A DNA stretch of 64,000 nt from Actinomycetota bacterium (GTDB lineage Bacteria; Actinomycetota; Acidimicrobiia; Acidimicrobiales; Aldehydirespiratoraceae): contig JAPOHW010000001.1 in the NCBI GenBank assembly GCA_029979265.1, positions 372,001 through 436,000 on the forward strand, read 5' to 3'. The notes below the pieces were generated by a model. It worked only from the letters and a program-made list of their open reading frames with translations. It was not told the DNA's origin and made no database searches. Both the position numbers and the translations under genes were made by a program. Below are positions 37,499-41,177 of this stretch, one piece after another (position 1 is the stretch's first letter; every line of letters begins with the position of its first letter).

Positions 37499-37527
37499 TT
37501 GAGAGGGAGTTCTCGGCCCGGTAGGCT
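37499..37527 (+). promoter_or_regulatory. Promoter TTGAGA-17 bp-TAGGCT for the leuB-ilvE-cimA operon
   Basis: Sigma-70-like -35/-10 with 17-bp spacer, 7 nt before the leader-peptide start. Confidence 0.65.
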
Positions 37528-37534
37528 TGCGATC

Positions 37535-37570
37535 GTGATGATCAACACGCTCATCATCGGTATTTCGTAG
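37535..37570 (+). CDS. Putative Ile-rich leader peptide (V/M)MINTLIIGIS (leaderless)
   Basis: gtg atg atc aac acg ctc atc atc ggt att tcg tag: 4 Ile codons in an 11-codon ORF, followed by two hairpins and a T tract. Confidence 0.75.
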   Translation: MMINTLIIGIS

Positions 37571-37596
37571 CGCACGTCGGATTTCCCGGCGTGCGC
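37570..37596 (+). promoter_or_regulatory. Leader hairpin, 11-bp stem GCGCACGUCGG-AUUUC-CCGGCGUGCGC
   Basis: Read directly; one U.G pair. Confidence 0.75.
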
Positions 37597-37601
37597 CATC
37601 T

Positions 37602-37626
37602 CCGTCCACTCTGGTGGGCGGTTTTT
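37602..37626 (+). terminator. Intrinsic terminator/attenuator CCGUCCAC-UCUG-GUGGGCGG-UUUUU upstream of leuB
   Basis: 8-bp stem, tetraloop, five T immediately after. Confidence 0.8.
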
Positions 37627-37650
37627 CTTGTTTCAGGGGGTTGCACAGGC

Positions 37651-38616
37651 ATGGCGCATCGCATCGGCATCATGGGTGGCGACGGCATTGGCCCCGAGGT
37701 CGTCGCCGAGGGTCTCAAGGTCATCGATGCGCTCGGCGTCGACTACGAGCGCATCGACTACGACCTGGGCGGTGAGCGGTATCTGAGGGACGGCACCGTC
37801 CTCACCGACGAGATCATCGAGGAATGGCGCGGGATCGACGCGTTGTACGCCGGCGCAGTCGGCACGCCCGATGTCCCGCCCGGTCTCATCGAGCGCGGCC
37901 TGCTCCTGCGCATGCGCTTCGAACTCGATCTCTACATCAACTATCGACCCTTTGTTGCGCCCGGCCACGATTTCGTCGTGATTCGTGAGAACACCGAAGG
38001 TACCTATGCCGGGGAAGGTGGATTCTTGCGCAAGGGAACGTCGCACGAGGTCGCCACCCAGGGGTCGGTCAACACGCGGCACGGCGTCGAGCGCTGCGTT
38101 CGCTACGCCTTCGAGTTGGCGATGCAACGCAACAAGCACTGCACACTCGTGCACAAGACCAACGTCCTCACCTTTGCCGGCGACCTCTGGGAACGGACCT
38201 TCAACGAGGTTGCCAGCGAGTATCCCGAGGTCGAGACGGCGTACAACCATGTCGACGCTGCGTGCATCTACTTCGTCGATCGGCCCGAACGCTACGACGT
38301 GATCGTCACCGACAACTTGTTCGGCGACATCCTCACCGACCTGGGTGGCGCCATCTCCGGGGGGATCGGACTCGCTCCAACTGCGAATCTCAACCCGAAC
38401 GGCATGTCGATGTTCGAGCCGGTGCACGGCTCGGCGCCCGACATCGTCGGCACGGGCAAGGCAAATCCTGTCGCTGCCATCTTGAGCGGCGCGATGATGT
38501 TGGACCACCTCGGCGAGACCGAGGCGGCCGATCGCATTCGGGCGGCGTGCGCCGACCCGAACACACTCACCGGATCCACCAGCGAGATCGGCGACCAGGT
38601 CGTCGCCCGTCTCTGA
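37651..38616 (+). CDS. leuB: 3-isopropylmalate/isocitrate-type dehydrogenase (LeuB-like)
   Basis: MAHRIGIMGGDGIGPEVVAEG, MRFELDLYINYRPF, VIRENTEGTYAGEGG, FEPVHGSAPDIVGTGKANPVA. Confidence 0.9.
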   Translation: MAHRIGIMGGDGIGPEVVAEGLKVIDALGVDYERIDYDLGGERYLRDGTVLTDEIIEEWRGIDALYAGAVGTPDVPPGLIERGLLLRMRFELDLYINYRPFVAPGHDFVVIRENTEGTYAGEGGFLRKGTSHEVATQGSVNTRHGVERCVRYAFELAMQRNKHCTLVHKTNVLTFAGDLWERTFNEVASEYPEVETAYNHVDAACIYFVDRPERYDVIVTDNLFGDILTDLGGAISGGIGLAPTANLNPNGMSMFEPVHGSAPDIVGTGKANPVAAILSGAMMLDHLGETEAADRIRAACADPNTLTGSTSEIGDQVVARL

Positions 38617-38625
38617 GGAGCGCTC

Positions 38626-39543
38626 ATGCCCATCGAAACAACCCCCCACATCTGGATGAACGGCGACATGGTGCCGTGGGAAGACGCAACGATCCACGTC
38701 CTCACCCACACGCTCCACTACGGCACCGGCGTCTTCGAAGGCATTCGTGCCTATGAGACCGAGCAGGGGCCTGCGATCTTTCGGCTGACCGAGCACATCG
38801 AACGCCTCTACAACTCGGCCAAGATCCTGGGAATGCCGATGCCGTTCGATGTTGCGACGATCGTCCGGGCATGCAAGGACGTCGTTGCCGATTCCGGTCT
38901 CGACGCCTGCTATCTGCGCCCGATCGCCTACTACGGCTACGGCGAGATGGGCCTGGCCACAGGTGCGTGCACCACCGACATCGCCATTGCAGCCTGGCCG
39001 TGGGGTGCCTACCTGGGTGACGATGCGGTCAGCAAGGGCGTACGGATGAAGATCAGTTCCTGGACCCGTCACGACCACAACATCATGCCGCCGGCGGCCA
39101 AAACCACTGGCAACTACGCCAACAGCACGCTGGCCAAGATGGAAGCGCTCAACGCCGGCTACGACGAGGCGATCATGCTCAACGGCGCCGGCTTGGTGAG
39201 CGAGTGCTCGGGAGAGAACCTGTTCTGCGCAAAGGGCGATGTCGTTCTGACGCCGCCGACGTCGTCGGGGGCGCTGCCCGGCATCACCCAGGACACCGTC
39301 ATTCGTCTCGCTGCCGACCTCGGTATCAACATCGAGATCGGTGATCTGGCGCGGAGCGACCTGTACACCGCCGACGAGATCTTCGTCGTGGGCACCGCGG
39401 CCGAGGTCTCGGCTGTGAACTCGGTCGACGACCGCGCGGTGCCGTGTCCCGGCCCGGCCACCACGGCCCTCGCCGCGGCGTACGCCGACCTTGTCCGAGG
39501 CCGCAACGACAAGTACCGCGACTGGAACGAATTGGTGAGCTGA
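38626..39543 (+). CDS. ilvE: Branched-chain amino acid aminotransferase
   Basis: LHYGTGVFEGIRAYET, YLRPIAYYGYGEMG, NGAGLVSECSGENLF, EIFVVGTAAEV. Confidence 0.94.
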   Translation: MPIETTPHIWMNGDMVPWEDATIHVLTHTLHYGTGVFEGIRAYETEQGPAIFRLTEHIERLYNSAKILGMPMPFDVATIVRACKDVVADSGLDACYLRPIAYYGYGEMGLATGACTTDIAIAAWPWGAYLGDDAVSKGVRMKISSWTRHDHNIMPPAAKTTGNYANSTLAKMEALNAGYDEAIMLNGAGLVSECSGENLFCAKGDVVLTPPTSSGALPGITQDTVIRLAADLGINIEIGDLARSDLYTADEIFVVGTAAEVSAVNSVDDRAVPCPGPATTALAAAYADLVRGRNDKYRDWNELVS

Positions 39544-41177
39544 TGACCGAGATCGACCGCTCTGCGCATCATGATCCGTCGTGGCCGACGGTGGTCGACA
39601 TCTACGACACGACGCTGCGCGACGGCAGCCAACTCGAGGGAATCTCGCTCACGGTCGACGACAAGCTCCGTATTGCCGAGCAACTCGACCGGCTCGGCGT
39701 CGCCTTCATCGAGGGTGGTTGGCCGGGCGCCAATCCGAAAGACGATGAGTTCTTCGCTCGGGCCCGTACCGAGCTCGAGCTGTCCACCTCGCAGTTCGTC
39801 GCCTTTGGTTCGACCCGGCGGGCCAAGGGAAAGGTCGACTCCGACCAGACCCTGGCCAACCTGGTCGCCGCTGGAACCGACGTCGTGTGCATCGTCGGCA
39901 AATGCTGGGACTACCACGTCACCGAGGCGCTCAACACGACGCTCGACGAGGGAATCGCGATGGTTGCCGACTCCGTCGAGTACCTCGTTGGGCAGGGCAA
40001 GCGGGTGTTCTTCGACGCCGAGCATTTCTTCGATGGCCACAAGCGCAACCCCGAGTTCAGTCTCGCCGTGCTCGAAGCCGCTGCCATGGCCGGTGCCGAG
40101 GCGGTCGTGTTGTGCGACACGAACGGAGGCTCCCTTCCGCCCGACATCGAAGCCGCAGTCCGTGAGGTGGTCGACCACGTCGACTGCCAGGTCGGCATCC
40201 ACCTGCACAACGACACGGGTTGTGGTGTGGCCAATGCGCTCGCCGCCGTACGGGCCGGTGCGACACAGGTCCAGGGGACGATCAACGGCTACGGCGAGCG
40301 AGTCGGCAATTGTGACCTCGTGCCGATCATGGCGAACCTCGAACTCAAGATGGGGATTCGGTGTCTGCCCGAGGGTCGCCTCGAAAACCTGACGTCGGTT
40401 GCGCACCATGTGGCCGAACTCGTCAACTTCTCCGTCGATCCGCAACAGCCGTACGTCGGTTCCACGGCGTTCGCTCACAAGGCGGGCCTGCACACCTCGG
40501 CGCTGAGTCGGGCGAGCGACGCGTACGAGCACGTGGCTCCCGAGACCGTGGGCAACGGCACCCGGGTCCTCGTGTCGGAGATGGCCGGCCGCTCAACCCT
40601 CGAGATGAAAGCCGAGTCGTTGGGGATCGAACTCGACGGCAAGACCGTCGGGGACGTGATCGACACCCTGAAACGGCTCGAACACGAGGGGTACCACTTC
40701 GAAGCGGCCGATGCGTCGCTCGAGTTGCTCATGCGCGGGGCAGCGGGCTGGATACAGCCGTACTTCTCGCTGGAATCGTTCTCGGTCTCGACCGATCATC
40801 GGTCGGGTACGAATGCTCGACTGTGGAACGAGATCGCAGTCGATGTCGAAACGGAGGCCACGGTGAAGATCTGGGTCGACGACGAGCGTCGACTGGCAGT
40901 CGGCGAGGGAAACGGGCCAGTCAACGCCCTCGATGCCGCCCTCCGATCGGCGCTCGACGATCGCTACCCGGCGCTCGGCCGGATCTCGCTCACCGACTTC
41001 AAGGTCCGAGTACTCGACACCGGGAAGGGCACCGGAGCGGTGACCCGCGTGCTGCTCGACTCGACCGACGGCAAACGAGAGTGGACCACCATCGGGGTGA
41101 GCGAGAACATCATCGAGGCGTCGTGGCAGGCGCTCGTTGACTCGCTCGTCTACGGCCTGCTCCACAGCGACAGCTGA
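39543..41177 (+). CDS. cimA: Citramalate synthase
   Basis: VDIYDTTLRDGSQLEGISLTVDDKLRIAEQLDRLGVAFIEGGWPGANPKD, HLHNDTGCGVANALAAVRAGATQVQGTINGYGER; C-terminal regulatory domain; start overlaps ilvE stop. Confidence 0.93.
   Translation: MTEIDRSAHHDPSWPTVVDIYDTTLRDGSQLEGISLTVDDKLRIAEQLDRLGVAFIEGGWPGANPKDDEFFARARTELELSTSQFVAFGSTRRAKGKVDSDQTLANLVAAGTDVVCIVGKCWDYHVTEALNTTLDEGIAMVADSVEYLVGQGKRVFFDAEHFFDGHKRNPEFSLAVLEAAAMAGAEAVVLCDTNGGSLPPDIEAAVREVVDHVDCQVGIHLHNDTGCGVANALAAVRAGATQVQGTINGYGERVGNCDLVPIMANLELKMGIRCLPEGRLENLTSVAHHVAELVNFSVDPQQPYVGSTAFAHKAGLHTSALSRASDAYEHVAPETVGNGTRVLVSEMAGRSTLEMKAESLGIELDGKTVGDVIDTLKRLEHEGYHFEAADASLELLMRGAAGWIQPYFSLESFSVSTDHRSGTNARLWNEIAVDVETEATVKIWVDDERRLAVGEGNGPVNALDAALRSALDDRYPALGRISLTDFKVRVLDTGKGTGAVTRVLLDSTDGKREWTTIGVSENIIEASWQALVDSLVYGLLHSDS

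Follow-up and report, generated by a model that had tools for sequence, protein, structure and literature searches.

Within the window, by which we mean the whole stretch of 64,000 nucleotides that was analysed, leuB, ilvE and cimA follow one another on the forward strand, under names assigned by NCBIfam models that all scored above their cut-offs and that agree with the earlier note on this DNA (Table 1). The cimA ATG shares one base with the ilvE stop codon, the last of that codon. The region upstream of leuB holds a promoter, a short upstream open reading frame (uORF), a hairpin (P1) and a predicted intrinsic terminator (T). A greA-like gene lies upstream of this leader in the opposite orientation, and T can therefore not be the terminator of an upstream gene on the same strand. 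When checked base by base, the promoter, the uORF, P1 and T were all found where the earlier note had placed them. The frame from 37535 to 37570 reads as 11 codons before its stop (GTG ATG ATC AAC ACG CTC ATC ATC GGT ATT TCG TAG), so that the peptide does have the four Ile codons claimed for it, but one Met instead of two. The arms of P1 (37570-37580 and 37586-37596) form 11 bp, and the first of these pairs is made by the third base (G) of the uORF stop codon. The arms of T (37602-37609 and 37614-37621) form 8 bp and are followed by TTTTTCTT; the leuB ATG lies 24 nt beyond position 37626. This promoter fell short in a simple sigma-70 scan. The folding z-score of the leader was -2.98. A search of Rfam, T-box and riboswitches included, gave no match above the gathering score for this leader or for the ilvB and leuA leaders described below, the best sub-threshold match being DsrA (26 bits, with 60 needed).

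Table 1. Positions of the leader elements and genes in the window
Feature	Position	Strand	Basis
Promoter, TTGAGA (37499-37504), 17 nt, TAGGCT (37522-37527)	37499..37527	+	sequence; -35 TTGAG and -10 box conserved in relatives
uORF, (V)MINTLIIGIS	37535..37570	+	reading frame, Ile at -2 and UAG stop conserved
uORF starts and stop	GTG 37535 / ATG 37538; UAG (TAG) 37568-37570	+	sequence
uORF control codons, Ile	ATC 37541, ATC 37553, ATC 37556, ATT 37562	+	
P1 hairpin, GCGCACGUCGG-AUUUC-CCGGCGUGCGC	37570..37596	+	fold, covariation
Intrinsic terminator T, CCGUCCAC-UCUG-GUGGGCGG, and U-rich tract	37602..37629	+	sequence, fold; conserved
leuB, 3-isopropylmalate dehydrogenase	37651..38616	+	NF002898, 464.7 bits (cut-off 393)
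ilvE, branched-chain aminotransferase	38626..39543	+	NF005146 and TIGR01122, both above cut-off
cimA, citramalate synthase	39543..41177	+	TIGR00977, 672 bits (cut-off 450); start from translation

The earlier note had named a lack of conservation in relatives as grounds for abandoning its reading, and had suggested a covariance search in Acidimicrobiia. We looked for leuB in 51 genomes of the family, and the leader stood before it at 45 of the 48 loci with a readable upstream region. A covariance model (R1) matched the window with an E-value of 8.6e-22, the window being itself part of the R1 training set. Among good genomes, the same model matched 129 of 191 in the order and 128 of 210 in the class Acidimicrobiia, counts that depend on the genomes sampled and on models trained on the same lineage, in which relatives are not independent samples. 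Among the 80 named leuB loci 29 carried the R1 element, one of them labelled Acidobacteria (L210); the named records of close relatives were mostly Acidimicrobiia or Acidimicrobiales. R1 did not find the element at any of the distant loci L234-L251, whose labels are mostly deltaproteobacterial, Poribacteria or Zixibacteria. Two weak covariance matches elsewhere in the genome of the window (C29:110675 and C105:43330) came without uORF and terminator, and R1 matches outside the class (L155-L164, E about 1e-4 to 1e-6) had no branched-chain gene downstream; both sets were treated as chance.

Three family loci lack the element. At two of them (L031 in G001 and L043 in G014) the block from uORF through P1 to T is absent and the leuB ATG comes 5 nt after a -10 box, so that leuB itself looks leaderless there, by a natural deletion of the attenuator. 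In an AT-rich relative (L033 in G024), the element was lost upstream of leuB without a comparable promoter fusion.

The two hairpins are conserved as structures. Standard pairs filled 99.6% of 728 pair cells in a MAFFT alignment that was not fitted to structure. In the family alignment, shifting the partner by 1-3 columns brought pairing down to 28-56%, and five pairs had changed on both sides, against 1.6 in shuffles, four of them in P1. Hardly any variation is seen in the 5' arm of T (CCGUCCAC in the window), whose U-G wobble is kept in 30 of 41 family members with no drift to C-G; this constancy perhaps reflects a tuned terminator strength or a second pairing partner. In 114 of 124 relatives an in-frame start is preceded by a TANNNT-like box (A at position 2, T at position 6) at a distance of 4-11 nt, in most cases 6-9 nt. 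Leaderless transcripts of Streptomyces lividans have a mean distance of 6.3 nt from the -10 box to the start site (PMC8079986), and the conserved spacing seen here is what would be expected of leaderless transcripts. It bears indirectly on the other ground that the earlier note gave for abandoning its reading, a transcription start beyond 37626. Streptomyces and Corynebacterium are known to have leaderless leader peptides (PMC8079986, PMC10272879).

Leaders of the same architecture were also found, as second and weaker R1 matches, before ilvB, leuA and stand-alone cimA. We compared 124 elements, of which 89 were counted as leuB (L057, where the contig ends, by default), 25 as ilvB, 9 as cimA and one as leuA. 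The residue two codons before the stop was Ile in 88 of the 89 leuB leaders and in all nine cimA leaders, and Ile made up 50% of residues -6 to -2 in the former and 69% in the latter. Over the same residues the ilvB leaders had 33% Leu and 38% Val, with ends such as LVVIT, LVVVT and LLLIE, while the leuA leader had SLLLL and ended in SLLLLM. With the proviso that relatives are not independent, Ile and Leu content differed between leader types with high significance (for Ile in cimA versus ilvB leaders, p 3e-11). The control codons track the product of the operon: Ile for leuB-cimA and cimA, Leu/Val/Ile for ilvB, and Leu for leuA. Codon choice within the leaders is also distinctive, as Val GTA and Ile ATT are strongly over-represented relative to the genes of the window: GTA accounted for 39 of 69 and 30 of 45 Val codons in leaders versus 3 of 140 in window genes, and ATT stood at -2 in 80 of 89 leuB leaders. 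In GC-rich DNA, hairpins and short ORFs turn up frequently, and the leader could in principle be a chance combination of hairpins with an accidental Ile-rich ORF, but that explanation is refuted by the class-wide conservation, the covariation and the codon-operon matching, and we give it practically no weight.

The genome of the window contains three such leaders, before leuB (Ile), ilvB (Leu/Val) and leuA (Leu). The ilvB leader encodes VNVATSHRLVGVPG (G000 contig C40, 139014-139098; L102) and the leuA leader VKHLSLSLLLLV (contig C16, upstream of leuA; L169), each frame ending in a stop and each followed by the same UAG-P1-T layout; in the leuA leader P1 and T are predicted with zero unpaired bases between them. 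The ilvB leader matched a second, ilvB-type model (R2) with an E-value of 1.5e-9, its sequence being in the R2 training set. Upstream of trpE and pheA of the same genome we saw no such leader, and the layout therefore looks specific to branched-chain genes. P1 of the ilvB type covaries, with 28 double-changed cells against 8.9 in shuffles. R2 matched 126 of 147 good genomes of the class, a figure that stands for either type since R2 also picks up leuB-type leaders, and 94 of 399 genomes of the phylum, of which 64 belong to other classes. Sixteen out-of-class loci were opened; the DNA fetched for 15 of them contains a match to ilvB, and in most the frame closes with Leu/Val/Ile. The ilvB version occurs in other actinobacterial classes as well. 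A further leader from another class (L149 in G569, contig C11, 7739-7816) ends in VLLIT before its stop and has P1 and a terminator; within the fetched 1 kb downstream there is no ilvB, and a prephenate-dehydratase-like frame is found there. In one out-of-class family (f101) the ilvB leaders (L259, L274-L276, L280, L281 and L283) have, by eye, a gap of about 0-1 nt between P1 and T, the tightest seen.

The stop codon of the uORF is UAG in 120 of the 124 elements, and at least 123 have the third base of the stop in a P1 pair; in three elements with UAA or UGA stops, the G-C or G-U pair between stop and P1 is swapped to A-U. The gap between P1 and T is 0-8 nt (median about 4) in every operon type, with a free spacer sequence, and the distance from stop to T is 23-35 nt. 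When the leaders were folded with the ribosome footprint masked, T was predicted to be folded in all ribosome states (medians 0.95-0.99). P1 was predicted to be closed at about 0.98-0.99 with no ribosome or with a stall at -4, at about 0.55 with the ribosome stalled at -2, the last Ile codon, and at 0 with the ribosome at the stop.

Taken together, the comparative data argue for a ribosome-mediated transcription attenuator that senses charged tRNA-Ile, a reading to which we assign a probability of about 0.85. Short putative leader frames with codons for the product precede four operon types, and a predicted intrinsic terminator, T with its U-tract, lies between leader and first gene. That the operon is controlled by Ile-tRNA charging had been proposed in the earlier note, and conservation, Ile at -2 and codons that track the operon now lend this strong comparative support. 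An alternative is that the leader acts on leuB translation or mRNA stability, T being a structural or decay barrier and not a regulated terminator. U-tracts are indeed short in some relatives, and Cys leaders of Mycobacterium have no terminators (PMC1262725), but terminator shape and U-tract are kept in four operon types despite different stem sequences, and we consider this alternative very improbable.

The earlier note had implied a textbook switch between mutually exclusive hairpins. A conserved antiterminator helix exclusive with the terminator was sought among all column pairs of the family alignment and in the footprint-masked folds, and nothing was found beyond four conserved pairs, the exception being a wobble-rich 5-pair helix of the Ile codons with the 3' arm of T. 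Potential antiterminators were compared with shuffled sequence, giving median z-scores of -0.04 (leuB), 0.77 (ilvB) and 0.66 (cimA). The interpretation in the earlier note is thus partly supported: the leader would belong with the ribosome-mediated attenuators (trp/his/ilv type) in the broad sense, and since no antiterminator was found, probably not with the classical three-hairpin type. In a classical scheme, the 3' arm of P1 and the 5' arm of T would form a short antiterminator, and P1 would protect the terminator. The four conserved pairs fit this, as a pairing between GGCG of P1 and CGUC of T is available to essentially all 41 aligned leuB leaders, some of which fold imperfect extensions of it, and the 5' arm of T is as constant as if it had a second partner. 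Against this, the pairing is no stronger than in shuffles and is not kept in ilvB and cimA leaders, and its direction is wrong, as the 3' arm of P1 is freed with the ribosome at the stop, i.e. in the fed state. We therefore regard a classical attenuator as improbable. By eye, the 3' arm of P1 could also be paired with the start of leuB in the window (UGCGCCAU/AUGGCGCA), but relatives do not keep this pairing and it was set aside as a local coincidence.

For the tRNA-Ile-sensing attenuator, we infer stalling and termination to proceed as follows. RNA polymerase would start at or beside the GTG/ATG of the putatively leaderless uORF, and a ribosome would load on the 5' end of the transcript and read the Ile codons. 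With plentiful Ile-tRNA it would get to the UAG, where its footprint opens P1; T would then be completed and transcription would end before leuB. With Ile-tRNA in short supply the ribosome would stall upstream on the Ile codons, P1 would stay closed, and read-through would allow leuB-ilvE-cimA to be transcribed. Closed P1 would thus act as an antiterminator by steric exclusion, the P1 helix and the full T stem not both fitting at the RNA exit channel of the polymerase. Within the exit channel, a terminator has to fold until about 8-9 nt separate it from the end of the RNA. Given the tight spacing of P1 and T, a closed P1 a few bases upstream would therefore clash with the folding of T. Moreover, P1 is the sole element that tells the starved from the fed state, and since starvation is expected to give read-through, P1 should favour read-through, an elimination argument that takes the direction of regulation as given and leaves coupling factors out of account. 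Once a terminator in E. coli is more than about 27 nt away, a ribosome at a stop codon does not block it any more (PMC4824070); the 23-35 nt measured here lie around that limit, so that a ribosome at the stop could open P1 without blocking T.

Several points weigh against this scheme. U-tracts are weak in one genus (for example TTTCGTAATTTG). T is predicted to fold in every state, so that base pairing alone predicts no switch; a stall on the last Ile codon already opens P1 in part, which blurs the on state; and untranslated transcripts would retain P1 and read through. In addition, a bioinformatic study argues that adjacent hairpins and hairpin clusters promote termination instead of hindering it (PMC8355165). 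We therefore put forward the step in which closed P1 prevents T only tentatively, at somewhat less than even odds. P1 might instead be a pause or synchronising hairpin, the switch operating via ribosome-polymerase coupling, NusA/NusG or Rho and not via a direct block by P1. P1 on forming would put the polymerase within T, leaderless loading would require synchronisation, and other terminators and attenuators are governed by pausing and by the distance between ribosome and polymerase (PMC4824070). By itself, though, a pause hairpin gives no reason for termination to differ between stalled and completed translation, and the distance from stop to T is near or past the range of ribosome repression; we find this alternative rather unlikely, if the least so among those considered.

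While attenuation is a textbook mechanism, what we describe here would, if true, make up a family spread over a whole lineage, in which a compact and fixed layout of uORF, UAG-anchored hairpin and abutting terminator is re-targeted to different operons via changed control codons. The prediction for the class, which is known mainly through genomes of uncultured members, is that isoleucine controls the citramalate route; and should P1 need no alternative pairing to work, a simple principle of switching would be added. It is tempting to speculate, with a little more reserve than for the steric step itself, that there exists a class of attenuators in which a stop-anchored hairpin serves as steric antiterminator until the terminating ribosome erases it, so that two hairpins make up a switch with no alternative pairing, in branched-chain genes of Acidimicrobiia and before ilvB in further actinobacterial classes. 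Our literature search brought up no paper describing a leader before citramalate synthase, and among the papers it listed none dealt with leaders of Acidimicrobiia.

Among known systems, the Corynebacterium ilvB-II motif and ilvBNC attenuator (PMC10272879, PMC11857589) similarly combine a uORF rich in branched-chain codons, which begins close to or at the 5' end, with downstream hairpins and a terminator in front of a branched-chain operon. In Corynebacterium the uORF extends across P1 and the antiterminator overlaps the terminator, whereas in our leaders the uORF ends where P1 begins, on the stop codon, and P1 has no overlap with T; compared with ilvB-II by its published description, P1 begins at or next to the stop in the elements measured. 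The Streptomyces leaders ilvL, leuL1 and leuL2 (PMC8079986) and the LEU element (PMC1262725) are likewise short peptides with end-product codons, leaderless as ours would be, before ilvB, leuA and leuS. Unlike ours, they run on past the control codons, and an Ile leader on leuB-cimA is not reported there; the Streptomyces leader before leuA has no typical terminator, and a pseudoknot may form in it. The ilvB1 attenuator of M. tuberculosis (PMC13236596) shares the LVVI control codons, and a ribosome at its stop is proposed to mask the antiterminator region and let the terminator form, the same logical direction as proposed here; it differs in having a base-pairing antiterminator exclusive with the terminator, of which none is conserved in our leaders. 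Finally, in pyrBI-type attenuation (discussed in PMC4824070) it is also the position of the ribosome that decides termination, with no alternative hairpins. In that case a close ribosome blocks the terminator, whereas in the leaders described here the stop is 23-35 nt away and the ribosome would act by removing P1.
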